Source: Gammaproteobacteria bacterium
GTDB lineage: Bacteria; Pseudomonadota; Gammaproteobacteria; JAJPIJ01
DNA length: 64,000 nucleotides
Direction of reading: 5' to 3'
NCBI GenBank assembly: GCA_022071965.1
Contig: JAJVIQ010000022.1
Coordinates: forward strand, 1 to 64,000
The position numbers and the translations under genes are program-made. The notes beneath the pieces are model-generated. The model searched no databases, was not told where the DNA came from, and saw only the letters and a program-made list of their open reading frames with translations. This document shows positions 149 through 18,733 of this stretch, piece by piece (the stretch's first letter is position 1; each line of letters starts with the position of its first letter).

Positions 149-1417
149 TCAGATGAGTCCGGCGAAGGGCTGCACCTCGACCGGCTCTCCGACTTCCACG
201 CCGCTGCAATCCTGCGGCAGGATGACGAAGCAGTTGGCGTGCGACATCGAGGTGAGGATCCCAGAGCCCTGCATGCCGGTCTTGCGCACGACGAGGGCGC
301 CGCTGCCGTCCTGCTCGAGCACGCCGCGCTGGAACTCCACGCGCCCCGGGCGCTTCTTCAGCCTCGAAAGGCTCGTGGCCTGCAATCGCAGGCCGGTCGT
401 CTCCGTCTCCCCCATCATCCTGCGCAGGGCCGGCTGCACGAACTGGTAGAAGGTCACCATCACGGATACCGGGTTGCCAGGCAGACCGAAGAAGACCGCC
501 CCGCGCACACGCCCGAAGGTCAGTGGACGGCCCGGCTTCATTGCCACCTTCCAGAATTCCGCGTGGCCGAGCTCGCTCAATACCGATTTGACGAAATCCG
601 CCTCGCCCACCGAGACGCCGCCGCTGGAGATGATCACGTCCTGGCCGGCCGCCGCAGCCTCGAACGCAGCGCGCGTCTGCTCCCGGGTGTCGCGGACGAT
701 CCCGACGTCGTTGATCCGCGCGCCCACGCGCTGCAGCATGCCGCGCAGGGTATAGCGGTTGCTGTCGTGCACGTCGCCCGGTTCCAGCCGCTCGCCCACG
801 GGCTTCAGCTCGTCGCCGGTGGAGAAGATCGCGACGCGAAGCGGGCGGTGCACCGCGATCTTGGCGATCCCCAGCGAGGCGATGAGTCCGATGTCCGCGG
901 GCATGAGCCGCCGTCCCGCGGCGAGCACGGCCTGGCCCTCGCGGATGTCCTCCCCGGCGTAGCGGACGTTGTCGCCGGGCTGCAGACGGCCGTCGAGCCG
1001 GATGGCACCGTCGCCGCGGCGCTCGATGCGCTCCTGCATCACGACGGTGTCCGTGCCCGGCGGCAACGGCGCGCCGGTCATGATCCGGACACACTGCCCG
1101 GCGGCGACGGCGGACTCATACGGCCGACCGGCGTAGGCGGCGCCGATCACCTGGAGCTCGCGCGTGCCCTGCGCGGGGATGTCCGCGGCGGACAGCGCGT
1201 ATCCGTCCATCGCCGAGTTGGTGTGCGCCGGGACGTTCATCGTGGAGACGACGTCGGTGGCCAGGACGCGGTTCAACGCTTCGTCGATCGGCACCGGCTC
1301 CGCTTCGCAAACCGGCGCGACGTTCCCGAGTATGCGTCTCAGCGCCTCGTTCACCGACAGCGACGTCGGATCAAGCTCGTCGCCGCAGCCGGGGGAAGCA
1401 TGTATGGGTTCGGTCAT
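149..1417 (-). CDS. moeA: Molybdopterin molybdenumtransferase MoeA
   Basis: A 422-residue protein of normal MoeA length. MoeA hydrolyses adenylylated molybdopterin and inserts molybdate, the last common step of molybdenum cofactor synthesis in the cytoplasm. Family motifs are present: HTNSAMDGYA near residue 75, the MoaB/Mog-like catalytic stretch SSGGVSVGEADF near 265, and MKPGRPLTFG plus GLPGNPVS near 295-320. The start codon overlaps the stop of mobB by one base (TGATG), so the two are very likely translationally coupled in a mobA-mobB-moeA operon. Confidence 0.95.
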   Translation of the reverse strand: MTEPIHASPGCGDELDPTSLSVNEALRRILGNVAPVCEAEPVPIDEALNRVLATDVVSTMNVPAHTNSAMDGYALSAADIPAQGTRELQVIGAAYAGRPYESAVAAGQCVRIMTGAPLPPGTDTVVMQERIERRGDGAIRLDGRLQPGDNVRYAGEDIREGQAVLAAGRRLMPADIGLIASLGIAKIAVHRPLRVAIFSTGDELKPVGERLEPGDVHDSNRYTLRGMLQRVGARINDVGIVRDTREQTRAAFEAAAAGQDVIISSGGVSVGEADFVKSVLSELGHAEFWKVAMKPGRPLTFGRVRGAVFFGLPGNPVSVMVTFYQFVQPALRRMMGETETTGLRLQATSLSRLKKRPGRVEFQRGVLEQDGSGALVVRKTGMQGSGILTSMSHANCFVILPQDCSGVEVGEPVEVQPFAGLI

Positions 1418-2091
1418 CAGCGGGTCCCCATGTCCACCTTTCCGCTGCCGACATTATCCGCCAGCGCGAGGAAGCGGACGATGAAGGCGGCGATCTGGTC
1501 AGGGTCGTTGAGGTCGAGCAGGGCGACCGACGGCGGCACCACGAGCGGCCGATCGACGGCGACGGCCACGAAATGCGGGTCGCCGGGAAACAGCGTCGGC
1601 AGGCCCAGCGCCGGCCGGTGCAGCTCGATCTTCGGGATCGCCTCGCGCTTGAGGCCCTCGATCAGGATCAGGTCCAGGTCCTCGCCGCTCAGATGAGCGA
1701 GCATGTCGGCCAGCGACGGGTCCTCCTGGAGGTCGGTCTCCACCACCAGGGCCCAGCGCCGGCGCGAGCCGACCAGCACGTGCGTGGCGCCGGCGCGGCG
1801 CAGTTCGTAGCTGTCCTTGCCCGGGATGTCGATGTCGAAGTCATGGTGCGCATGCTTGACGACGCCTACGCGCAGGCCGCGCTGCCGCAGCCGCGGCAGC
1901 AGCGCCCGCAGCAAGGTCGTCTTGCCAGTCCCGCTCCAGGCGGCCAGGCCGATCATCGGGATCCTGTCGAACGCCTTCCGCATGGCTCCACAGCTTGCGT
2001 GCTGGGCACTGCGATGACAAGCCCCGCCGCCGCGTCGGCATCCCCGTGCGGGAGCGGGGGTGCGTCGCGGCTCGGGTCGCGGGCGACTCAT
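1417..2091 (-). CDS. mobB: Molybdopterin-guanine dinucleotide biosynthesis adaptor MobB
   Basis: GTP-binding adaptor that assists MobA in attaching GMP to molybdopterin. The P-loop WSGTGKTT sits near residues 52-59 and is followed by the MobB-typical VVKHAHHDFDIDIPGKDS and, later, DLILIEGLK. The start at 2091 overlaps the mobA stop as ATGA, which favours it by coupling. However, it adds 36 Arg/Pro-rich residues not usual in MobB. The conventional start would be the ATG at 1983 (188 residues), which has only a weak, very close GGAG. Function is secure; the start is not. Confidence 0.9.
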   Translation of the reverse strand: MSRPRPEPRRTPAPARGCRRGGGACHRSAQHASCGAMRKAFDRIPMIGLAAWSGTGKTTLLRALLPRLRQRGLRVGVVKHAHHDFDIDIPGKDSYELRRAGATHVLVGSRRRWALVVETDLQEDPSLADMLAHLSGEDLDLILIEGLKREAIPKIELHRPALGLPTLFPGDPHFVAVAVDRPLVVPPSVALLDLNDPDQIAAFIVRFLALADNVGSGKVDMGTR

Positions 2092-2729
2092 CTGCCGGCG
2101 GAGCCTCCATCCGCGGCGGTGCGTGACCGGATCGTTGCCTCGGCGGCCGCGACCTCCTCCGGCGTGTTGAGGTTGAGAAACATCGCGGACTCATCGGCGA
2201 AGTCCACGCGCGTCATGGGGTGCTGTGCGTACCAGCGGTCGATCTTGCGCTCGCCGGCCTCGAGGTAGGCGAGCAGCGATGGCAGCAGTGATCGATCCAG
2301 CAGGGCGAACACCGGCTCGAGCCGACCGCCGCTGTCGGCCACCGCGATCCGCGCCCCGTCGAGGACGAGGCCGCGATGCAGGCGCGCGGCGAGGTCCTCG
2401 GACAGGAACGGGGAATCGCACGGCACGCTCAGGACATATGCGGTGCGCGCGACCTGCATCGCGCTGGCCATGCCCGCCAGTGGCCCGCAAAAGCCCTCCA
2501 TGAGGTCGGTCACCACGGTCACGCCGAATTCCCGGTAGCGGTCGATATTGCGGTTGGCATTGACGAGCAGGTTGCCGACCTGCGGGCGCAGGGCGCGAAG
2601 CACGTGCTCGACCATCGGCCGGCCGGCCACGCGCAGCAGACCCTTGTCCGCGCCACCCATGCGGGTGGCGCGTCCGCCCGCGAGTACGACGCCCGTGATC
2701 TCGCCGCGCACGGCCGGGTCGACGCTCAT
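2088..2729 (-). CDS. mobA: Molybdenum cofactor guanylyltransferase MobA
   Basis: A 213-residue nucleotidyltransferase that transfers GMP from GTP to Mo-molybdopterin, giving the MGD cofactor used by DMSO-reductase-family enzymes such as formate dehydrogenase. The N-terminal signature VVLAGGRATRMGGADKGLL carries the glycine-rich GTP loop and the conserved Lys. VPCDSPFL and the NLNTPEE segment near the C-terminus are also typical. The ATG at 2729 has CAGGG upstream; a GTG six codons earlier (2747) is possible. It is the first gene of the mobA-mobB-moeA operon. Confidence 0.93.
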   Translation of the reverse strand: MSVDPAVRGEITGVVLAGGRATRMGGADKGLLRVAGRPMVEHVLRALRPQVGNLLVNANRNIDRYREFGVTVVTDLMEGFCGPLAGMASAMQVARTAYVLSVPCDSPFLSEDLAARLHRGLVLDGARIAVADSGGRLEPVFALLDRSLLPSLLAYLEAGERKIDRWYAQHPMTRVDFADESAMFLNLNTPEEVAAAEATIRSRTAADGGSAGR

Positions 2730-2790
2730 GCGCGCAGCCCTGGCCACGGCACGAACCCGGGCGCCGCCGGTGGTCGAGGCGTGGTCGCGC

Positions 2791-3540
2791 TCATGCGATC
2801 GATTCCAGGCGGAACAACAGTTTCATCCCCGTCTTGCGCGGCGGCAGACGCAGGACGGGTCTGAAACCATAGCGATGGAAGAGCGTGCGCAGATTCTCCT
2901 CGGTGAACAACCCGGTGTGCACCGGGGGCGCGAAACCCGGCCATCTCCCGACCGGGGTCGGCACATTCGGACTGCCGAGGTCGGGCGTGGTGACGAAGAC
3001 GTGTCCGCCCGGCCGGCAGCAGGCGCCCAGCAGCCGCATGAGAACGTGGGGATCAGGGGCGTGTTCCATCACCTCCGAACAGTGCACGAGATCGTAACGC
3101 GCGGCCGGCACGAACAGCTCCAGCGGGACGCAATGGAAATTGCATCTCGGGTAGGCGCGCTGCGCGTAGGCGACGGTGCTGGCATCCACGTCGACGCCGG
3201 TCGCGGCGGTGGCGCCGAGCAGACGCGCGGCGCCGACGAAGAATCCCCCGCCGCAGCCGATGTCGATGACGGTCCGGCCGCGGATGTGCCGGATGAGGCG
3301 CAGCGCCCGGAACAGCGCCTTGCGTCGTCGTGACGCCGCGTGCGGGTAGTAGTCCGCGTTGATGCCCTTGTGCCCCTGATATTCGGCGTTCAGATTCATC
3401 TGGCTCGGCATCGGGTCGAGGAACGCGAAGCCGCAGTCCTCGCAGCGGTGGTAGGTATAGCCCTTGACGACGACGTACGGGGCGTGGCGCGACCCCCGGC
3501 AGAGGGGGCAGGGGCTGCTGGCGCGGGCGGCGACGTTCAT
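2791..3540 (-). CDS. Class I SAM-dependent methyltransferase with N-terminal zinc-ribbon-like motif
   Basis: A 249-residue protein. Two CxxC knuckles (C11/C14 and C33/C36) resemble the small zinc ribbon seen in type-12/type-11 methyltransferases. The Rossmann domain follows, with motif [14 protein letters not shown] near residue 90 and an acidic end of beta-2 (GVDVDAS). The substrate is unknown; relatives modify sugars, quinones or small metabolites. It lies 62 bases upstream of mobA on the same strand, so it may be co-transcribed. The ATG at 3540 has no strong ribosome-binding site. Confidence 0.75.
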
Positions 3541-3609
3541 CCGGCGCCATTATGGAGAAGTTGCGCCGGCCGGCAAGTGCGGCCCGGGCGCGCGGCGCAC
3601 CGGCGCCGC

Positions 3610-3615
3610 TATACT
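3610..3615 (+). promoter_or_regulatory. Candidate -10 element (TATACT) of the AIM24-family gene
   Basis: TATACT matches the sigma-70 -10 consensus at five of six bases. It lies 38 bases before the start codon at 3648 in an otherwise very GC-rich stretch. No convincing -35 hexamer is found 16-18 bases upstream. Confidence 0.35.
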
Positions 3616-3647
3616 GGAAGGCCCCAGTTCATGCAGGAGTCTTCGAC

Positions 3648-4451
3648 ATGGCTATGGACGCAATCGATTACGAGATCCTCGGCGACGACATGCAGTACGT
3701 GGAGATCGAACTCGACCCGGGCGAGGCCGCGATCGGCGAGGCGGGCGCGATGATGATGATGCAGGATGGCGTCGAGATGGACACGATCTTCGGCGATGCC
3801 TCAGCGCAGTCGCAGCAGGCCGGCCTGTTCGGCAAGCTGATGGGCGCGGGCAAGCGCGTGCTGACCGGCGAGTCGCTGTTCACGACGGTCTACCACAACG
3901 AGTCCTCCGGCAAACGGCGCGTCGCGTTCGCCGCCCCCTATCCGGGCAAGATCATCGCGATCGATCTCGAGGAGGCCGGCGGAACGCTCATCTGCCAGAA
4001 GGACAGCTTCCTCTGCGCTGCGCGCGGCGTCGCGCTGGGGATCGCGATCCAGCAGAAGCTGGGCGTCGGCCTCTTCGGCGGCGAGGGTTTCATCATGCAG
4101 AAGCTCGAGGGCGACGGCATGGTGTTCGTACACGCCGGCGGGACGCTGGTCATACGCGACCTCGGGCCCGCGGAGACGATTCGCGTGGACACCGGCTGCG
4201 TGGTCGCGTTTCAACCGGGGGTGAATTTCGAGATCAAGTACGTCGGCAAGCTAAAGAGCGCGATCTTCGGCGGCGAAGGACTGTTCTTCGCGACGTTGAC
4301 CGGACCGGGGCGGGTGTGGCTGCAATCGCTGCCGCTCTCGCGGCTGGCGAACCGCATCATCGGTTCGGCCCCGGCAGCCGGCGGGCGCGCGGTCGGCGAG
4401 GGCTCGCTGCTCGGAGGGCTGGGGGCACTGATGGACGGGGACAACCGGTGA
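3648..4451 (+). CDS. AIM24 / TIGR00266 family protein
   Basis: A 267-residue member of the TIGR00266/AIM24 family (double-stranded beta-helix-like fold), widespread and of no established biochemical role in bacteria. Supporting stretches are the opening [19 protein letters not shown], the met-rich [23 protein letters not shown], and the C-terminal [20 protein letters not shown] that is diagnostic for the family. The ATG at 3648 is chosen because AGGAG (3635-3639) lies eight bases before it. The frame is open upstream to 3552 but that stretch looks non-coding. It appears monocistronic. Confidence 0.88.
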
Positions 4452-4706
4452 TCCATCCGGCGCTCGGGCCGTTCCTGCGCTACCGGAGCGCGGGAGGTCT
4501 TCGGGAGGTTGGCGCGGCACGCGGACGGCGCCCGGGCCTCGTGAGTCTGCCGCATCCGGTCACTGAAGAGCGCAGGCAGAGACGGTCCGCGCGCGTCGCT
4601 GGGCTCGAGGACCGGCGTTTCGTGCCGCTGCATGCGGGCGAATGGCGCCGCGATGAGGGGTTCGCCTTCGGCCGCCGGCAGGCCCGGCCGCGGTCGCACC
4701 ACCGCT

Positions 4707-6464
4707 TCAGCCGTGCCGGGCGAGCGGCTGCGGCGTGGTCTCGCCGAGGTCTGTGCGGACGCGTTCGCGCCGCAGGTAACCGGTCATCTGCGCGGTGTCC
4801 AGCGGCGCGCTGAACAGGTAGCCCTGGCCCGCGTCGCAGTGGTTGGCGCGCAGGAACGCCAGTTGTTCCTTGGTCTCCACGCCCTCGGCGATCACGTTCA
4901 GGCGCAGGTTGCGCGCCAGGCCGATGATCGCCTGGGTGATGGTCGCGTCGTCGTGGTCGTGCGGGATGTCGCTGACGAAGGAATGATCGATCTTGAGCGT
5001 GTCGATCGGAAAGCGCTTCAGGTAGTGCAGCGAGGAGTAGCCCGTCCCGAAGTCGTCGATCGCGATCCCCACGCCCAGATCCTTGAGTCGTTTCAGCGTC
5101 GCGACCGATGCCTCGGTATCGTCCATCAGGACGCCCTCGGTGATCTCGACCTCCAGGTGCCCGCCGGCAAGCTCGGTCTGCGAGAGCGCCGAGGCGACGA
5201 CCGCCGCCAGGTCGCACTGGCGGAATTGCCGGGGCGAGATGTTCACCGACACGCGCGTGCCTGGCAGCCCCAGGCCGGACCAGCGCCGGATCTGTCCGAG
5301 TGCGGCCTTCAGCACCCACTCGCCGATCGGCAGGATGAGACCGGTGTCCTCGGCCAGGGGAATGAACTCCGCGGGTGCCAACAGCCGGCCGCCGGCCCGC
5401 TGCCAGCGCAGCAGCGCCTCCACGCCCCGCAGCCTGCCGGAGTGCAGGCTCACCTTGGGCTGGTAGTGCAGGACCAGCTCGTTGCGGTCGATCGCCTGGC
5501 GCAGCGCGGCCTGCATCCGCAGGCGCTCGCCGGTGAGCTCGTTCATGGCCGGCGTGAAGAACTTGAAGCCGTTGCGGCCGCCCGCCTTGACCCGATACAT
5601 GGCGGTGTCGGCGTTCCTGATCAGGGCGTCGGCATTGTCGCCGTCGAGCGGATGGAGCGTGATGCCGATGCTGGGCGTGACGTAGAACTCCTGGCCGCCT
5701 ACCAGGAAGGGCCGCGAGATGGCCTCCACGATCTTCTGGGCGATCGCAGCGGCCTGGTCGGGCGATTGCACCTCCTCCAGCGTCACCGTGAACTCATCGC
5801 CGCCCAGCCGCGCGACCTTGTCGCACTCGCGCAGGCACGAGCGCAGGCGCTTGGCCACCATGACCAGCATCCGGTCCCCGGCCTGGTGGCCGAGCGTGTC
5901 GTTGACCGCCTTGAAGCGATCGAGATCGATCATCATCAGCGCGACGCTGCTGCGGCGCCGCGCGCCGCGCTCCAGGGCCTGTTCGAGGCGGCGGCGGAAC
6001 TGGCTGCGATTCGCCAGCCCGGTGAGGCTGTCGTAGTGCGCCAGGCGACGCAGTTTGAGTTCCGCCTGTTTGCGCTTGATCGCCTGCCGTATGGTGCGCG
6101 CGATGACGTGTCCGTCGGTCTGCCCCTTGACGATGTATTCCTGCGCGCCGGACTCGACCGTGTCGAGGATGGCCTGATCCTCGTCGACGGCGCTGAGCAC
6201 GACCACCGGGATGTAGCGGCAGATCTTGAGCAGCCGGTGCACGGTCTCCACGCCGCGCGAGTCCGGCAGGTTGAGATCGGTCATGACCACGTCGAACGCG
6301 GCAGTCTTCAAGGCAGCCAGGCCCGATCTCAGGTCGCTGACGTGGGTGATCACCATCCCGGCGCCGGCATGCGCCGACAGCCGCCGGCGGATCAGCGCCG
6401 CGATGTCGGCCTGATCCTCGATGAACAGTATGTTGACCGCCCGGGCGGGTTCTATGGTTTGCAT
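4707..6464 (-). CDS. Response regulator with REC, GGDEF and EAL domains (c-di-GMP turnover)
   Basis: A 585-residue cytoplasmic regulator. Residues about 10-125 form a receiver domain with acidic pocket IEDQAD and phospho-acceptor Asp in VVMTDLNLPDS. The diguanylate cyclase domain (about 155-315) keeps an intact RLGGDEF active site. The phosphodiesterase domain (about 330-585) opens with VEALLRW, carrying the EAL glutamate, and has IDDFGTGYSSL. Both catalytic motifs look intact, so net activity cannot be predicted. No cognate histidine kinase is adjacent. The open frame continues 89 codons upstream but those residues are compositional noise; the ATG at 6464 starts the REC fold properly. Confidence 0.9.
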   Translation of the reverse strand: MQTIEPARAVNILFIEDQADIAALIRRRLSAHAGAGMVITHVSDLRSGLAALKTAAFDVVMTDLNLPDSRGVETVHRLLKICRYIPVVVLSAVDEDQAILDTVESGAQEYIVKGQTDGHVIARTIRQAIKRKQAELKLRRLAHYDSLTGLANRSQFRRRLEQALERGARRRSSVALMMIDLDRFKAVNDTLGHQAGDRMLVMVAKRLRSCLRECDKVARLGGDEFTVTLEEVQSPDQAAAIAQKIVEAISRPFLVGGQEFYVTPSIGITLHPLDGDNADALIRNADTAMYRVKAGGRNGFKFFTPAMNELTGERLRMQAALRQAIDRNELVLHYQPKVSLHSGRLRGVEALLRWQRAGGRLLAPAEFIPLAEDTGLILPIGEWVLKAALGQIRRWSGLGLPGTRVSVNISPRQFRQCDLAAVVASALSQTELAGGHLEVEITEGVLMDDTEASVATLKRLKDLGVGIAIDDFGTGYSSLHYLKRFPIDTLKIDHSFVSDIPHDHDDATITQAIIGLARNLRLNVIAEGVETKEQLAFLRANHCDAGQGYLFSAPLDTAQMTGYLRRERVRTDLGETTPQPLARHG

Positions 6465-6624
6465 GAAGCGCAGCGATCCCGGTCTGTTTGAGCTCTGTCG
6501 CGCATCTGGGGGGGTAGCGGCCGGAAGGGGATGGACTTTACCGGGCCAGGGACCGGGGCCGCGTGCAGCGGCCGGCGCCCGATCCGCAAGGCCCGCGGAC
6601 GGACCGTGCCGGCGCGGGCTGCGA

Positions 6625-7500
6625 TCAATCCCCGTCCGCCGACCGGACCCGCGTGCCCTGCGGGCGCGGCGCCGGCATCTCGTCGTAGACGATGTTCTCG
6701 GCGCCGTGGAACGCAAGGAAGTGGCGGCCATTGGCCCTCGCGATCAGGGTGACTCCGACCTTCCGCGCCAGCTCCAGCCCCATCTTCGTGATGCCGGAGC
6801 GCGAGAGCAGCGCGGGGATGCGCATCTGTGCGACCTTGATGACCATCTCCGAGGTCAGCCTCCCGGTCGTGTAGAAGATCTTGTCCTCCCCCGGGATGCC
6901 ATCGAGCCACATCTGCCCGGCGATGGCATCGACGGCGTTGTGCCGCCCGACATCCTCGACGAAGGTCACGATCTCCATGCCCGCGCACAGCGCGCAGCCG
7001 TGCACCGCGCCGGCATTGCGATACACCTCGTTGTAGGCCTTCAGGTTGCGGAGCAGGCCGTAGATCACGGACTGGTGCAGCGGCACCGGCGGCAATCGCA
7101 ACTGATCGAGCTCCTCCATGATGCGGCCGAATACGGTGCCCTGTCCGCAGCCGGTGGTGACCGTGCGCCGGCCGAGCTTCTCGTCCCAGTCCGCGGTTCC
7201 CGTGCGCGTGGTGACGGCCACGGCATTGACGTCCCAGTCGACCTGCACGGAGACGATGTCCTGCAGGGCGCTCACCAGGCCCTGGTTGCGCAGGTAACCG
7301 AGGGCCAGCAGCTCCGGATGCGTGCCGAGCGTCATCAGGGTGACGACCTCGCGCTTGTCGACGTAGAGCGTGAGCGGATTCTCCCCGGCGATCTGCGTGA
7401 GTTGCGGCTGACGGTACTCGTCGAAGACGGTGACGGCGTGCGTCGCCGGGAGTCCGCTGAGGGTCATGACCGGGCGATAGCGTGCCGAAGTGGTCGTCAT
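6625..7500 (-). CDS. fdhD: Formate dehydrogenase accessory sulfurtransferase FdhD
   Basis: A 291-residue protein. FdhD carries sulfur from the cysteine desulfurase IscS to the bis-MGD cofactor, which is needed for active formate dehydrogenase. The CALC motif (CxxC, sulfur-carrying cysteines) near residue 175 is present. So are GCGQGTVFG, the EDVGRHNAVD cofactor-binding stretch, and TTGRLTSEMV. It sits between moaA and the c-di-GMP regulator, in a neighbourhood with five other molybdenum cofactor genes and a formate-type transporter. A formate dehydrogenase is therefore expected elsewhere in the genome. The ATG at 7500 lacks a clear Shine-Dalgarno sequence. Confidence 0.94.
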   Translation of the reverse strand: MTTTSARYRPVMTLSGLPATHAVTVFDEYRQPQLTQIAGENPLTLYVDKREVVTLMTLGTHPELLALGYLRNQGLVSALQDIVSVQVDWDVNAVAVTTRTGTADWDEKLGRRTVTTGCGQGTVFGRIMEELDQLRLPPVPLHQSVIYGLLRNLKAYNEVYRNAGAVHGCALCAGMEIVTFVEDVGRHNAVDAIAGQMWLDGIPGEDKIFYTTGRLTSEMVIKVAQMRIPALLSRSGITKMGLELARKVGVTLIARANGRHFLAFHGAENIVYDEMPAPRPQGTRVRSADGD

Positions 7501-7608
7501 GGCGAGGAGCCGGGAGCGGGGCGGGTCACGCTGCCGGCAATCCGCGGCCGGGATCTGTGGCGTGTCCGGGGCTGGCGGTCACGGCGGCGGCCCGCAGCGC
7601 GGCGGCGG

Positions 7609-8619
7609 TCAACCGCCGGTCACGTTCATGTGGCGGATGATGACCGGTCGGGCGGCGAGGTCGAACTCGTGTCCCCGGGGTTTGATCGCCATGGCGTCGC
7701 GGATGGCCTGCTTCAGCGATTCGAGATCGCCGGGGTTGGCGCGCACCACCCGCTTCAGATCGACGGAGTGCTCCTGGCCCAGGCAGAGCAGCAGCCGCCC
7801 CTCGACGGTCAGGCGCACGCGGTTACAGGTGTCGCAGAAATTGTGGCTGTGCGGCGAGATGAAGCCGACCCGCGTACCGGTCTCGCTGATGCGGAAGTAG
7901 CGCGACGGGCCGCCCGTGGTCTCGGTCGTCGCCGTCAGCGTGTACACCCGCTCGATGTCGCGGCGTACCTCGTCGCTCGAATAATAGGCCTCGGCGCGAT
8001 CGTGATCGCCGATGATGCCGAGCGGCATCTCCTCGATGAAGCTGATGTCCATGCCGCGATCGCTGGCGTAGCGGACCAGGTCGATGACTTCGTCGTCGTT
8101 GCGATGGCGCAGGATGACGGCGTTGATCTTGATGCGCTCGAAGCCGGCCCGCCTCGCCGCCTCGATGCCGGCGAGGACCTGGTGGAGGTCGCCGACGCGG
8201 GTGATCTTCCTGAATCTGTCGGGGCGCAGCGAATCCAGGCTGATGTTGACGCGCCGCACGCCGGCGTCCCTGAGATCCTGCGCCATGCGCGGGAGCTGGG
8301 AGCCGTTGGTGGTCAGCACCAGCTCGCGCAGCGGCAGCGCGCCCAGGTCGCGGAACAGTTGAATGACGTTGCGCCTCACCAGCGGCTCGCCGCCGGTGAG
8401 GCGTATCTTCTGCACGCCGAGCTCGACGAAGGCGCGGCCGATGTACGCCAGTTCCTCGAGCGTCAGCACCTGCGCGCGCGGCAGGAATTCCATGTCCTCG
8501 GCCATGCAATACACGCAGCGGAAGTCGCAGCGATCCGTCACCGAGATGCGCACGTAGCTGACGACGCGGCCGTAACGGTCGACGAGCTGCGGGGGGTGGT
8601 TGGCGGGCGCGGGGCTCAT
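7609..8619 (-). CDS. moaA: GTP 3',8-cyclase MoaA
   Basis: A 336-residue radical SAM enzyme that starts molybdenum cofactor synthesis by converting GTP to 3',8-cyclo-GTP. The N-terminal radical SAM cluster motif CDFRCVYC lies near residue 32 and is preceded by VRISVTDR. The C-terminal cluster cysteines appear in [11 protein letters not shown] and LLLCLG. The protein ends in Gly-Gly (NVTGG), the double-glycine tail needed for activity in this family. GGAG eight bases before the ATG supports the start. The gene runs toward fdhD with a 108-base gap. Confidence 0.96.
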
Positions 8620-8640
8620 GACGTTTCTCCGTCGCGATGC

Positions 8641-8646
8641 AGTATA
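8641..8646 (-). promoter_or_regulatory. Candidate -10 element (TATACT) for moaA
   Basis: Read on the minus strand, 8646-8641 is TATACT, five of six bases of the -10 consensus, 21 bases upstream of the moaA start codon. The -35 region is weak. I saw no obvious Moco-riboswitch-like structure in the 188-base moaA/MFS intergenic region. Confidence 0.35.
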
Positions 8647-8807
8647 TCACCGTCTTTCCGGCCGAAGAGGTCCGTCGGGACAACGGCTTGACTTATGACA
8701 GCGGGTTAGACACTCTGCCTGCCTGCACGGTTCGGCATCCCCGCGCCGCTCGCAGCCGCGGCGACAGCGAGAACGACAATAACGCCTGACTTGGAGGACC
8801 CTGCATC

Positions 8808-10340
8808 ATGGCGGAGCTGCTGTCCAAAGAACGCATCATCGCCAGGCCGGGATTCAACCGCTGGCTGGTGCCCCCGGCCGCCCTGGCCATACACCTGTGC
8901 ATCGGCATGGCCTATGGCTTCTCGGTGTTCTGGAAGCCTCTCGGCGGCGCCCTGATCGATGCCGAGGGCAAGGCGGTGCCGGCCTGCGCCGCCGGCGCGA
9001 CGACCTTCGCCGAGAAGGCGAGCGGGACGCTGAAGGCGCTGGCGGCCACCGACTGCAACTGGACGCAGTTCGACCTGGGCTGGATGTACACGCTGTTCTT
9101 CGTCCTGCTGGGGTGCGCGGCCGCCATCTGGGGCGGATGGCTGGAGCGGGCGGGGCCGCGCAAGGCCGGCCTGGTCTCGGCAGTGTGCTGGTGCGGCGGG
9201 CTGCTCATCTCCGCACTGGGCGTCTACTGGCATCAGCTGTGGCTGATGTGGCTGGGTTCCGGCGTCATCGGCGGCGTCGGCCTGGGCCTCGGGTACATCT
9301 CGCCGGTCTCGACCCTGGTCAAGTGGTTCCCCGATCGCCGCGGCATGGCCACCGGCATGGCCATCATGGGCTTCGGCGGCGGCGCCATGATCGGCTCGCC
9401 GTTCGCGACCCTGCTGATGAGCCATTTCAAGACCCCGACCGACCCCGGCGTGTGGCAGACGTTCGTGACCATGGCGGCGGTGTATTTCGTGTTCATGCTC
9501 GGGGGCGCCTTCGGCTACCGCGTGCCGCCACCGGGCTGGCGACCGGAGGGCTTCAGGCTGCCGGCGAGCACCGTCGGCAATACGATGATCACCATGCACC
9601 ACGTGCACCTGAAGGATGCCCACAAGACCCCGCAGTTCTGGCTGCTGTGGCTGGTCCTGTGCCTGAACACCTCCGCGGGCATCGGGATCATCGGCGCCGC
9701 CTCGCCGATGCTGCAGGAGACCTTCGGGGGGCAGCTTTTCGACCGCCCGGAGGTGGATTTCGGGCAGTTCACCGCCGCGGACCGGGTCGCGGCGGCGGCG
9801 GTGGGCGCCGGCTTCGTGGGCCTCATCTCGCTGTTCAACATCTTCGGCCGTATCGGCTGGGCGTCGTTCTCCGACAAGCTCGGGCGCAAGCCCACGTACG
9901 TGACGTTCCTGCTGCTCGGCGCCGTGCTTTACGCGCTCGCGCCGATGGCGGCACGCGGCGATCACCTGGCGCTGTTCGTCGGCAGCTTCTGCATCATCGC
10001 CTCGATGTACGGAGGCGGCTTCTCCACCATTCCCGCCTACCTCGCCGATTTGTTCGGCACCCAGTTCGTGGGCGCGATACACGGCCGGCTGCTCACCGCC
10101 TGGTCGGCGGCAGGGATCCTCGGGCCGGTGGTCGTGAACTACATACACGACACGCACGTGGCACGGGGCATCGCCCCGGAGCATCTCTACGATTCCACGT
10201 TCTACATCCTGGCTGGCATGATGGTGATCGGCTTTGTCTGCAACCTGCTGGTGAGGCCGGTTGCCGACCGGTATTTCATGACGGCCGCCGAGCTCGAGGC
10301 GGAGAGAAGACTCAGCCATGAAACAGGAAACCCGAAGTAG
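8808..10340 (+). CDS. Oxalate/formate antiporter (OFA) family MFS transporter
   Basis: A 510-residue inner-membrane carrier with about 12 hydrophobic segments and a long periplasmic insertion after the first helix. The family pattern GMAYGFSVFWKPL, FVLLGCAAAIWGGWLERAGP and KWFPDRRGMATGMAI identifies the OFA branch of the major facilitator superfamily, which exchanges small carboxylates. Formate, oxalate or another monocarboxylate is the likely substrate; fdhD and moaA next door favour formate, but this is inference. GGAGG about nine bases before the ATG supports the start. Its last 23 bases overlap the following small gene. Confidence 0.88.
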   Translation: MAELLSKERIIARPGFNRWLVPPAALAIHLCIGMAYGFSVFWKPLGGALIDAEGKAVPACAAGATTFAEKASGTLKALAATDCNWTQFDLGWMYTLFFVLLGCAAAIWGGWLERAGPRKAGLVSAVCWCGGLLISALGVYWHQLWLMWLGSGVIGGVGLGLGYISPVSTLVKWFPDRRGMATGMAIMGFGGGAMIGSPFATLLMSHFKTPTDPGVWQTFVTMAAVYFVFMLGGAFGYRVPPPGWRPEGFRLPASTVGNTMITMHHVHLKDAHKTPQFWLLWLVLCLNTSAGIGIIGAASPMLQETFGGQLFDRPEVDFGQFTAADRVAAAAVGAGFVGLISLFNIFGRIGWASFSDKLGRKPTYVTFLLLGAVLYALAPMAARGDHLALFVGSFCIIASMYGGGFSTIPAYLADLFGTQFVGAIHGRLLTAWSAAGILGPVVVNYIHDTHVARGIAPEHLYDSTFYILAGMMVIGFVCNLLVRPVADRYFMTAAELEAERRLSHETGNPK

Positions 10341-10503
10341 AGGATCGGCCCACGCCAGCGGCATGGAATCCGGACCGCAGTGGCATCCGGACCCGTCGAG
10401 CTGGCCGCTGGTGGCGGTAAGCTGGCTGCTGGTCGGCATCCCGCTGTTGTGGGGGATCTACGAGACCTTCGACAGGGCCAAGATCCTGCTGTTCGGCGAC
10501 TGA
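10318..10503 (+). CDS. Small single-helix partner of the OFA-type MFS transporter
   Basis: A 61-residue protein with one predicted transmembrane helix (LVAVSWLLVGIPLLWGIYETF, residues about 31-51) followed by a short cytoplasmic FDRAKILLFGD tail. Its start lies inside the carrier gene, overlapping it by 23 bases in another frame, so the two are translationally linked. Tiny membrane proteins of this kind accompany OFA-type carriers in many proteobacteria and are described as MFS transporter small subunits. Their mechanistic role is not established. An internal ATG at codon 16 is an alternative start. Confidence 0.75.
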   Translation: MKQETRSRGSAHASGMESGPQWHPDPSSWPLVAVSWLLVGIPLLWGIYETFDRAKILLFGD

Positions 10504-10541
10504 GCCGGCGCGCCGACGGCCGCGACGGAGAACAGGAGGTG

Positions 10542-10562
10542 CCGCCACCGCTCAGGTGGCGG
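10542..10562. terminator. Hairpin between converging genes
   Basis: Perfect eight-base arms CCGCCACC and GGTGGCGG with a five-base loop, between the MFS small-subunit stop (10503) and overlapping the stop of the converging CYTH gene (10552). No T-run follows on either strand, so a termination role is only plausible. Confidence 0.35.
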
Positions 10563-11037
10563 TATTCCAGCCGCTGTAGGGGTGTCTCACGAGGTTGTTG
10601 TTGTAGTAGCGCCGGTCGTGGGAGACCTCCTCGCCGATCCAGTCCGGCCGCTCGAAGACCTCCCGCTCGTGGCGCAGTTCGATCTCCGCGAGTTCCAGGC
10701 CGGCGTTCTCGCCCTCGAAGACGTCGATCTCCCACCAGTGCCCCGCGTGCTCCACATAGTGGCGCGTCTTCTCGATGAAGGGGCGCACGCACAACTGTTC
10801 GAGAATGGCGCGGCCGTCGGCGGCCGGGATGCCGAAGTCGAACTCCGTCCGCGTCGTGCCCGGCGTGGCGCTCTTTATGTTGAGACGGGCCTCGTCGCCG
10901 TCCACGCGCACGCGGATGGAGCAGGCGCTGCCGGCACCCGTCTGCAGATAGCCCTGGCAGAGATGTACGGACTTGACGATACCCCGTTTCCAGCCGTCGT
11001 GGCGGAGCAGGAACTTTCTTTCGATTTCGATGCCCAT
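10552..11037 (-). CDS. CYTH-domain protein, inorganic triphosphatase-like
   Basis: A 161-residue triphosphate tunnel metalloenzyme. It opens with the family-defining EIERKFLL (residues 3-10). It continues with alternating charged strands, including IRVRVDGDEARLNIKS, EFDFGIP, the tunnel residues of FIEKTRHYV, and ELAEIEL. Close relatives are short bacterial CYTH proteins of the NeuTTM type, several of which hydrolyse inorganic triphosphate with Mg2+. Substrate here is inferred from family only. It converges on the MFS small subunit gene and is divergent from ampG with a 60-base gap. Confidence 0.85.
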   Translation of the reverse strand: MGIEIERKFLLRHDGWKRGIVKSVHLCQGYLQTGAGSACSIRVRVDGDEARLNIKSATPGTTRTEFDFGIPAADGRAILEQLCVRPFIEKTRHYVEHAGHWWEIDVFEGENAGLELAEIELRHEREVFERPDWIGEEVSHDRRYYNNNLVRHPYSGWNTAT

Positions 11038-11097
11038 CTTCGGTCTCTCGCGGTGTAAGCTTCCCGACTGTCTGGCCGGTCGCGGCCGTTACTCTAC

Positions 11098-12360
11098 ATG
11101 ACTGGCCGCATGGAGCCGAAGCCCTCACAGACAGTATCCGGCCGCCGCCTGGTCGAGATGGCGCTGCTGGGATTCGCCTCCGGACTGCCGCTCGCGCTCA
11201 CCGCCTCGACCATGCAGGCATGGCTGACGGTGGCCAATGTCGACATCCGCAAGATCGGCCTGTTCAACCAGGTGCAGATCCCCTATACGCTGAAATTCCT
11301 GTGGTCGCCGCTGGTGGATCGCTATTCCCTGCTGGGGCTCGGGCGTCGGCGCGGCTGGATGTTGCTCAGCCAACTGGCGCTGATCGCCGCGATCGTCTGC
11401 ATGGGCATGCTCGCGTCGGCGGAGCACCTGCCGCTCGTCGCCGTGGCGGCGTTGGCGGTGGCGTTCTTCTCCGCCACCCAGGACGTGGCGGTCGACGCCT
11501 ATCGCACGGACTCCCTGAAGGAGCGCGAGCGCGGCCTGGGCACCGGCGTGTTCATCTCGGGCTACCGGGTGGCGATGCTCGTCTCCGGCGCCCTTGCCCT
11601 CATCATCGCCGCCAGCGTCGGCTGGCGCTACACCTACTGGCTGATGGCGGGGCTGATGATGATCGGCGTGCTGACGACGCTCAACGCGCGCGAGCCGGAC
11701 GCCGACGGGCAGCAGCCGCGCACGCTGCGGGCGGCGGTGGTCGAGCCGTTCCTCGACTACTTCTCGCGCCGGGGCGCCGCGGCGATGCTGGTGCTGGTGC
11801 TGCTCTACAAGCTGGGGGACGCGCTCGCGGGCTCGCTCAGCACGACCTTCTTCATCCGCGAGCTCGGTTTCACGATGCAGGAGGTGGGCCTCATCAACAA
11901 GGTGCTCGGCCTGGCGGCGACGATACTTGGCGCGATCGCGGGCGGACTGTGGATGACGCGGCTGCGGCTCTATCCGGCGCTGATGGGATTCGGCATTTTG
12001 CAGGCGCTGACCAACCTCGGGTTCTGGTTCCTGGCGCTGATCGGCAAGAGTTACCTCGGCATGGCCGCGGTGGTCGCGCTCGAGAACCTCACCGGCGGGA
12101 TGGGTGCGAGTGCGGTGACCGCGCTGCTCATGGCCCTGTGCAACGCGCGCTACTCGGCGACCCAGTTCGCGCTGTTGTCGGCGCTCGCGGCAGTGGGTCG
12201 CATCCTCATCGGGGCGCGCTCCGGTTACATGGTCGAGGCATGGGGCTGGCCGCAATTCTTCCTCGTCACCTGCGCCGCGGCGATCCCCGGCCTCGTGGTT
12301 CTGCATCTGTGGCGCAATCGCCTGCCGATGTCGACCTTGAACGGCAGCGGCGCCGCCTGA
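11098..12360 (+). CDS. ampG: AmpG-family muropeptide permease
   Basis: A 420-residue MFS carrier with about 12 membrane segments. The start LLGFASGLPLALTASTMQAWL, the AmpG-typical GLFNQVQIPYTLKFLWSPLVDR and SATQDVAVDAYRTD match AmpG. These carriers import GlcNAc-anhydroMurNAc peptides from the periplasm for cell-wall recycling and, in some species, AmpC induction. No ampR or beta-lactamase gene is close by. The ATG at 11098 has a poor ribosome-binding site and the ATG at 11110 is equally possible. The gene is followed after 13 bases by the Nramp-like carrier, so the two probably share a transcript. Confidence 0.85.
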   Translation: MTGRMEPKPSQTVSGRRLVEMALLGFASGLPLALTASTMQAWLTVANVDIRKIGLFNQVQIPYTLKFLWSPLVDRYSLLGLGRRRGWMLLSQLALIAAIVCMGMLASAEHLPLVAVAALAVAFFSATQDVAVDAYRTDSLKERERGLGTGVFISGYRVAMLVSGALALIIAASVGWRYTYWLMAGLMMIGVLTTLNAREPDADGQQPRTLRAAVVEPFLDYFSRRGAAAMLVLVLLYKLGDALAGSLSTTFFIRELGFTMQEVGLINKVLGLAATILGAIAGGLWMTRLRLYPALMGFGILQALTNLGFWFLALIGKSYLGMAAVVALENLTGGMGASAVTALLMALCNARYSATQFALLSALAAVGRILIGARSGYMVEAWGWPQFFLVTCAAAIPGLVVLHLWRNRLPMSTLNGSGAA

Positions 12361-16798: not shown

Positions 16799-18733
16799 CT
16801 ATTCGTCGCGAACGACGCGGAGGCCGATGCTTTCATGCCCGCGCGTGGCCGGCCACTTGTCGCGACGGGCGGAACGTATCGATTTCGGCGGCACGTCGTA
16901 GCTCCCGCCGCGCACCACGCGATCGGCGCAGCCGTCGGTCTCGCGAGCGGCGCCGTCCGTAGGCGCGCCATCGTAATTCGGCAGGTAGCAGTCCTGCACC
17001 CATTCGGCGACGTTGCCGGCGGTGTCGTAGAGGCCGAAGGCGTTCGGGCTGAAGCTGGCGACGTCCACGGGCTTGATCGGCTTCAGATCCGGCGAGCACC
17101 CGAAGCATTGCGCCATGCCCGGCTGCGGTGTCCGGCCCCAGTACCAGTACTGCGGATCGGATCCGGCCGCGGCCGCGTATTCCCACTCTGCCTCGGTCGC
17201 CAGGCGGTAGTTCTTGCCCGTCTGCGCCGACAGCCAGCGCGCGTAAGCCGCGGCATCGTTCCAGCTGATACCGGAGACGGGGGCGGAGTCACCGAGGCCG
17301 AACGGATCCGGCGGCTGCCGGAACTGCGCGTACTGCGCATTGGTGATCTCGGTGCGGCTGATGGCGAACCTGCGCAGGGTGACCGTGTGGCGGGGGTGCT
17401 CGCTCGGCTCGGGCCAACTCCCCGCGCTGCCCATCTCGAAGCTTCCACCCGGCAGCCAGACCATCGGCGGGCCGTTGCCGTCGCGGAACTCCTCGACGGG
17501 TGGCGGCGAGGGTGGTGTGGTCGTGACCGCAGGTTCCGGCTGGGGCGCCACTTCGGGGCCCGACGCTGGCTCCGGCACGGTCGGCGCGGACCCCGGCTCC
17601 TGCGGTTCCGACTCGGGCTCCGGTGCCGGCGTGACGACCGTCGTGGTCGCCGGCGCGGTCACGCTGGCGAGGAGGGCGGCCACGGCCGGATTGGCGAGGA
17701 TCCGCTCGCGATACAGATAGGCGGCGGCGCCGCCGCCCGCCAGCACCAACAGCAGCAAGACCAGCGGCCAACGGCTGGGACGCACGTAGGCGTCGCGCGG
17801 GTCGGTGCGCCTGGCCGCGCGACGGACGGTGCGCGGCGCCGGGGCCCGCTCGGGGACCGGTGTGCTGACGAACTCGGCGGGCCCGCTGATGCTGGCCGCC
17901 GCACGGTCCGCCGGTCGACCCTCGGCGACGACGTCCTTCAGCACCGGCTTGCCGTTGGCGGTGCGCTCGCCGCGTCCGGGCAGGTCGATGACCACGACCG
18001 TGGTGTTGTCCTGACGCGGGATCGCGGCTTCCTCGACACCCTTCAGGAGCACCGACACGAAGTCGCGCGCGCCCTTGGCTCCGCCGGAGTAGGAGAGGAT
18101 CTTGGCCGCGTTCAGTGAATCCAGCCCGTCGGTGGACATGATGATCCGATCACCGGGCTGCAGCGTGTACGGTTCGTCCGGGCAGTCGACCTCGGCGATC
18201 TCATCGCCCGAGAGGGCGCTCATGAGCATGTTGCGGGAGAAACCCGCCTCCGGCTCCACCGGCCGGCCGGCCGCGGCCATGCGATCGAGAAACCCGCCGT
18301 AGCTGTGGCAGACGTTCTTCTTCTCCAGCGTGCCGCCGCGCAGCAGGTAGAGATGGCTGTCCCCGACGCTGATCCAGTGAAGTCTCTGGTCCACGACCAG
18401 CGCGGCGACCAGCGTGCAGCCCATGCCGCGCAGCGCCGGGGTCTCGCGTACCGTGTCGGTGATCGACGCGTTGGCGGCGCGCACCGCCGCCTGCAGCATC
18501 GCCGGGACATCGGCTGTGGGAAAGTGGGAGGTGACGTGCTTGTTGAAGGTCTGCACCGCCATGTTGCTCGCGACGTTGCCGGCGGCGTGCCCGCCCATGC
18601 CGTCGGCGACGATGACCAGCGACGCGGAATCCTTCTCGTCACTGCCGCCGATGGTTGTGATCAGAAATGCATCTTCCTGATAATCGCGTGCCCCGTTGAT
18701 CTGCGAGCCGGAGATGTCTAGCGTCTGCGCCAT
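16799..18733 (-). CDS. PP2C protein phosphatase - transmembrane - FGE-like fusion protein
   Basis: A 644-residue fusion. Residues about 1-250 are a PP2C-type Ser/Thr phosphatase with metal-binding motifs RDYQEDA, VADGMGGHAAG, VGDSHLY, STDGLD and DNTTVVV. One helix near 325-347 follows, then a Pro/Glu-rich linker of about 70 residues. The C-terminal domain (about 430-644) is formylglycine-generating-enzyme-like, from MVWLPGGSFEMGS through ATEAEWEYA, GNVAEWV and VVRGGSY to SIGLRVVRDE. The usual cysteine-bearing end of catalytic FGE is absent, the segment after VVRGGSY reading DVPPKS, so this domain is probably a ligand-binding module. The phosphatase should face the cytoplasm and the FGE-like domain the periplasm. 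No kinase gene is adjacent. Confidence 0.88.
   Translation of the reverse strand: MAQTLDISGSQINGARDYQEDAFLITTIGGSDEKDSASLVIVADGMGGHAAGNVASNMAVQTFNKHVTSHFPTADVPAMLQAAVRAANASITDTVRETPALRGMGCTLVAALVVDQRLHWISVGDSHLYLLRGGTLEKKNVCHSYGGFLDRMAAAGRPVEPEAGFSRNMLMSALSGDEIAEVDCPDEPYTLQPGDRIIMSTDGLDSLNAAKILSYSGGAKGARDFVSVLLKGVEEAAIPRQDNTTVVVIDLPGRGERTANGKPVLKDVVAEGRPADRAAASISGPAEFVSTPVPERAPAPRTVRRAARRTDPRDAYVRPSRWPLVLLLLVLAGGGAAAYLYRERILANPAVAALLASVTAPATTTVVTPAPEPESEPQEPGSAPTVPEPASGPEVAPQPEPAVTTTPPSPPPVEEFRDGNGPPMVWLPGGSFEMGSAGSWPEPSEHPRHTVTLRRFAISRTEITNAQYAQFRQPPDPFGLGDSAPVSGISWNDAAAYARWLSAQTGKNYRLATEAEWEYAAAAGSDPQYWYWGRTPQPGMAQCFGCSPDLKPIKPVDVASFSPNAFGLYDTAGNVAEWVQDCYLPNYDGAPTDGAARETDGCADRVVRGGSYDVPPKSIRSARRDKWPATRGHESIGLRVVRDE

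Follow-up and report, generated by a model that had tools for sequence, protein, structure and literature searches.

A gammaproteobacterial PP2C phosphatase joined through one membrane helix to an FGE-like outer domain, and its candidate partner kinases

The window, by which we mean the whole 64,000-nucleotide stretch of gammaproteobacterial DNA analysed here, encodes a protein in which a PP2C phosphatase domain is joined through a single predicted membrane helix to an FGE-sulfatase-like domain. We put at roughly 0.5 the probability that this protein is a single-pass receptor-type Ser/Thr phosphatase that opposes a group of soluble Ser/Thr kinases with cNMP-binding domains (kinase-cNMP), its FGE-like domain binding an envelope ligand or protein. 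The domains, the predicted folds, the topology bias, the conservation and the single origin of the protein are solid, and its pairing with the kinases is statistical.

Bacterial Ser/Thr kinases that bear a sensor domain on the outside have been studied in depth, while phosphatases are mostly regarded as brakes that act at a constant level. Even for PstP of Mycobacterium tuberculosis one may ask whether a membrane-bound PP2C uses its outer portion for sensing. The PP2C-TM-FGE family is a conserved and genetically simple case with a defined outer fold and a named set of candidate kinases, and the sensing question is therefore directly testable in it. PP2C phosphatases, FGE-like domains and the plan of a PP2C followed by a TM helix and an outer domain are each already known separately. 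For FGE/SUMF1 combined with PP2C, no description was found in the literature searched, which covered few subscription papers, so that an earlier description is possible.

Domain layout and phosphatase domain

The gene runs on the minus strand from an ATG at 18733 to a stop at 16799, and its start position is common to the orthologues in the alignments. Its parts are as follows.

16799..18733, minus strand: whole gene, 644-aa PP2C-TM-FGE protein (P0001); ORF, with 8-row and 63-row orthologue alignments
17969..18733, minus strand: PP2C (PPM) phosphatase domain, residues 1-255, predicted cytoplasmic; Pfam PF13672/PF00481, AF2 fold matches, invariant metal positions
17768..17968, minus strand: low-complexity, predicted cytoplasmic linker, residues 256-322, Arg-rich ahead of the membrane; pLDDT <50 over most of 256-321, dN/dS
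17705..17767, minus strand: single predicted transmembrane helix, residues ~323-343; AF2 helix 323-347, positive-inside bias
17489..17704, minus strand: Pro/Glu-rich, predicted periplasmic spacer, residues 344-415; sequence, low conservation
16802..17488, minus strand: FGE-sulfatase-like (PvdO-like) domain, residues 416-644, predicted periplasmic; Pfam PF03781, PvdO fold match, cysteine columns

Two of the Pfam matches lie above their curated cut-offs, namely PP2C_2 (PF13672, 1.8e-13, residues 31-207) and FGE-sulfatase (PF03781, 1.5e-54, residues 422-642), and PF00481 (PP2C) also matched at 5.3e-09. Together with helix prediction and the sequence itself, these matches confirm the order of PP2C, one TM helix, Pro/Glu-rich spacer and C-terminal FGE domain that an earlier note on this DNA had described. 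The same note had called the PP2C motifs intact, and indeed the metal-binding positions D21, D44, G45, D125, D202 and D242 are invariant in 63/63 orthologues. In a structure search, the PP2C part of the AlphaFold2 (AF2) model matched tPphA at Z 30.0 and PstP at Z 28.4, and a fold search gave 33% identity to PstP structure 1txo. By Pfam and by these Z scores of 28-30, the domain has the catalytic fold of the PP2C/PPM Ser/Thr phosphatases (PstP/Stp1 subclass), and these results support residues 1-255 as an intact phosphatase domain that is predicted from its sequence to be active. A substitution particular to the window's genus was seen at residue 142 (window 18308-18310, minus strand), where Cys replaces the Asp of the DHS motif (NVCHS rather than NADHS; Cys in 2/63 sequences, Asp in 61/63), outside the metal positions checked.

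Against a same-genus orthologue, dN/dS was 0.09 for the PP2C domain, 0.16 for the FGE domain and 0.38 for the linker region (256-415). Both domains are under purifying selection, and values this low in each of them argue that the fusion gene is not a chance product.

The AF2 model, built from the 63 orthologues (mean pLDDT 80, pTM 0.48), has two confident domains, one long helix (323-347) and disordered linkers; because the pTM is low, the model does not fix the placement of the two domains relative to each other. Lys/Arg residues are more numerous in the 20 residues before the helix than in those after it in 51/61 orthologues in which a helix was detected (6 ties), and the PP2C domain is therefore predicted to face the cytoplasm and the FGE domain the outside. 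This predicted orientation is the layout of a receptor-type PP2C, with the N-terminal phosphatase inside, one TM helix and the C-terminal domain outside.

The FGE-like outer domain

The best structural match of the FGE part of the model was PvdO (5hha; Z 33.1, rmsd 1.9 over 231 residues), followed at Z 26-30 by TvpA (2y3c, Z 29.7), the PorK/GldK ring protein (Z 27.5) and structures of true FGEs (Z 26-27). The domain thus has the FGE-sulfatase fold of formylglycine-generating enzyme (FGE/SUMF1), as judged from PF03781 and from the Z scores to true FGEs. However, an active formylglycine-generating enzyme is ruled out by the cysteine columns: positions 614 and 619, after the RGGS motif, which from the motif spacing in the FGE literature we take to be the catalytic, copper-binding Cys pair, hold Cys in 0/63 sequences. 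The earlier note had reported the loss of these cysteines from the one protein, and none of the homologues kept them. In contrast to its close structural match, the domain falls far below the curated cut-off of the NCBIfam PvdO model (NF051459, 146 vs 500 bits), and it differs from PvdO and the rest of the PF03781 family also in being anchored to a phosphatase.

Four other cysteines (543, 546, 582 and 602, including the pair C543-x-x-C546) are invariant in the 63 sequences, a pattern suggestive of structural disulphides on the extracytoplasmic side. With these putative disulphides the protein resembles PstP, which likewise has a cytoplasmic PP2C, one membrane helix and a periplasmic domain, the latter with two disulphides, dispensable and of no known function (PMC12421883). 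PstP differs in going with the PknA/PknB kinases, and its outer domain has not been described as FGE-like.

Spread, origin and relatives

Full-length PP2C-TM-FGE relatives were found in 7 of the nearest genomes searched and at a further 60 or more loci (60-70), all from Gammaproteobacteria or from genomes labelled Proteobacteria only, so that the architecture occurs in at least ~70 gammaproteobacterial species. Two of the full-length matches among named genomes bear a doubtful Klebsiella label, and one carrier, Methylohalomonas lacus (L085), can be cultured. Of 229 gammaproteobacterial genomes drawn evenly, 24 held the fusion, across 15 families; in a draw of 299 genomes from the phylum, the window's own genome alone matched at E 1e-150. 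As to whether the layout is common and already described, as the earlier note had asked, it is thus common within some gammaproteobacterial families, and the literature search reported above stands for the second part. The domain trees support a single origin of the fusion (98/94 for PP2C, 100/83 for FGE), and together with the orthologues they rule out a one-off gene fusion or an assembly artefact. At one locus (L114:8001-9951) the PP2C and the TM-FGE are split into two adjacent ORFs in different frames, possibly through a frameshift in the linker or an assembly error.

The nearest FGE domains (42-47% identity, on neighbouring branches of the FGE tree) belong to proteins in which the FGE domain also follows one TM helix, but whose cytoplasmic part consists of cNMP-binding and rhodanese domains rather than a phosphatase. 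These proteins (L153:3951-8348, L154:2914-7254, L155:7299-12569 and L157:6749-12226) are 1400-1800 aa long, with cNMP-binding and rhodanese domains, a coiled coil, a long middle region, one TM helix and a C-terminal FGE domain, and resemble another FGE-headed receptor family.

FGE domains also occur on kinases. Kinase-TM-FGE proteins adjoin PP2C genes at L146 and L141, in other lineages, and two genomes of the window's family (G002, L221:4500-11953; G003, L222:6452-13864) carry an operon-like set of a PP2C, a ~1450 aa kinase protein whose C-terminal stretch is FGE-like, and a TM-FGE protein. These four sets make an FGE domain outside and phosphorylation control inside a recurrent plan. They share that plan with the window's protein, but their FGE domain sits on the kinase, with the PP2C encoded separately, whereas in the window's protein it sits on the phosphatase. 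The idea of the earlier note that the fusion mirrors kinase-sensor receptors is strengthened accordingly by the occurrence of such kinases beside PP2C genes.

Gene neighbourhood

The immediate neighbours of the fusion gene in the window encode Rdx, CorA and HrpA (Pfam). No kinase gene adjoins the fusion in the window's genome to form a kinase-phosphatase operon pair, which bears out the earlier note on this point. Stp1/PrpC-type PP2C phosphatases are usually encoded beside a kinase (review PMC6213207). The window's phosphatase shares their catalytic domain class, as the match to the NCBIfam Stp1/IreP equivalog (NF033484) indicates, but it is unlinked to a kinase, spans the membrane and bears an FGE domain, and that match is below the curated cut-off (127.5 vs 230 bits).

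Across orthologous loci, the most conserved neighbours are AmpG (38/72 loci, convergent; identity confirmed by TIGR00901), HrpA (35), MoaA (30) and Rdx (23), an arrangement that probably reflects shared synteny; at best, AmpG hints weakly at muropeptides. Since no phospho-signalling gene is conserved beside the fusion, the search for a partner by gene neighbourhood was set aside. Models of defence systems gave no match for the PP2C-TM-FGE protein. Window positions 149-12360, not far from the phosphatase gene, hold a conserved block of molybdopterin genes (MoaA, MobA-like, MoeA-like) with a CYTH protein and the AmpG muropeptide transporter, and the AmpG, MoaA and Rdx parts of this block recur beside orthologues in many genomes.

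Unlinked candidate partners

The window's genome gave ~16 kinase matches and two PP2C_2 matches, and its second PP2C adjoins a kinase of its own (L063:5052-5828 and 5859-7247). Four of the genome's Ser/Thr kinases are soluble and have a C-terminal cNMP-binding domain. One of these kinase-cNMP proteins (L056:8440-9753) was run as a query through the same 229 gammaproteobacterial genomes, with the presence lists scored by eye, and full-length relatives were found in 47/229. They were present in 24/24 fusion genomes (G202 being counted from two contig-edge fragments) vs 23/205 others (Fisher p 8e-20), and the family-level count, which corrects for relatedness at that level only, was 15/15 vs 33/167 (p 1e-12). 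The control, an HDOD kinase encoded by the window's genome, was enriched too (9/24 fusion genomes vs 9/205 others) and was absent from 15/24 fusion genomes at the same threshold; its weaker co-occurrence set it aside as the partner.

At 14/16 kinase-cNMP loci no PP2C gene lies nearby, and the other two (L207 and L208) hold the PP2C-TM-FGE gene itself. Among the orthologues, only those in L100, L107, L125 and L126 have a kinase within 8 kb, and there it is a kinase-cNMP 3-4 kb from the fusion; in most genomes the kinase-cNMP genes are on other contigs or far from the fusion. From their co-occurrence and from the kinase-cNMP loci that lack a PP2C, we therefore take the orphan phosphatase to be associated with the orphan kinases, which makes the kinase-cNMP proteins, on correlational grounds, unlinked candidate partners of the fusion phosphatase. 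It may just be that the fusion and kinase-cNMP have both long been present in the same lineages; 23 of the 229 genomes carry kinase-cNMP without the fusion, and fusion genomes are rich in other kinases too.

Proposed function and alternatives

As a receptor-type phosphatase, the protein would use its cytoplasmic PP2C to dephosphorylate proteins phosphorylated by soluble kinase-cNMP, perhaps including the kinases themselves. Its periplasmic domain, having lost formylglycine chemistry, would act as a disulphide-stabilised binding module, and when an envelope ligand or protein is bound to it, the PP2C would change in position, assembly or activity; both ligand binding and the direction of this control are what we infer for the FGE-like domain. 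A more elaborate version, which we offer tentatively, is that a ligand-gated PP2C sets the phosphorylation of several unlinked kinase-cNMP, such that a signal from outside would enter via the phosphatase and one from inside via the cNMP domains of the kinases, the two meeting on the same substrates.

A sensing role of the outer domain is not to be assumed, because PstP can do without its outer domain, for which no function is known, and anchoring is the main rival. The FGE-like domain would then merely position the enzyme on a fixed envelope partner, as a scaffold free of signal-dependent control. We consider this possible, if somewhat doubtful: FGE-like folds serve protein binding, as in the closely matching PorK/GldK ring protein and in T6SS immunity proteins reported to form an FGE-like family (Lopez 2021, as cited in PMC13340143), and the long, fast evolving and disordered linker would be a poor rigid transmitter, yet many families retain the FGE domain, it is under strong purifying selection, and its domain family is also joined to kinases and cNMP-rhodanese modules, as a sensor module would be. 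A different doubt concerns the client. The phosphatase might have a general role, acting for other membrane or HDOD-type kinases instead of kinase-cNMP, since kinases so outnumber PP2C_2 proteins in the genome that any orphan kinase could be a client, and the HDOD kinase is itself enriched with the fusion. Kinase-cNMP alone, however, is present in all 24 fusion genomes of the draw, which leaves a general role rather unlikely.

Two further alternatives concern the outer domain alone. That it is an enzyme with another chemistry (PvdO-like oxidation or CxxC redox), tethered to the phosphatase, seems improbable to us. Its closest fold, PvdO, is named dihydropyoverdine dehydrogenase in NCBIfam and the C543-x-x-C546 pair is invariant, but the PvdO score and the missing FGE Cys pair speak against it, as do the neighbours, of which the conserved ones are HrpA, Rdx, AmpG and molybdopterin genes and none is biosynthetic. 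The fold shared with the variable protein TvpA raises the idea that the domain is the variable protein of a diversity-generating retroelement. The chance of this is negligible, and for the window's genome (98.7% complete) such an origin is refuted by the lack of any reverse transcriptase or template-like repeat of the gene's 3' end and by a C-terminus that is conserved in the 63 sequences.

Other kinase loci

In the window's genome (L056:5214-9753) and at L201-L205, L209 and L213, tandem kinase-cNMP genes flank a gene for a CBS-domain protein, mostly together with phosphoglucose isomerase, and in some genomes SCO1, copper chaperone and phosphatidylserine decarboxylase genes follow. The window's genome also holds an FHA-ABC transporter gene near a kinase gene truncated at the contig edge (L169:16478-18940 and L067:7931-10456), and a cluster (L066:3006-8904) that combines a fusion of a kinase and a small-GTPase-like domain with Roadblock/LC7, FIST-domain and TPR proteins and unknowns.
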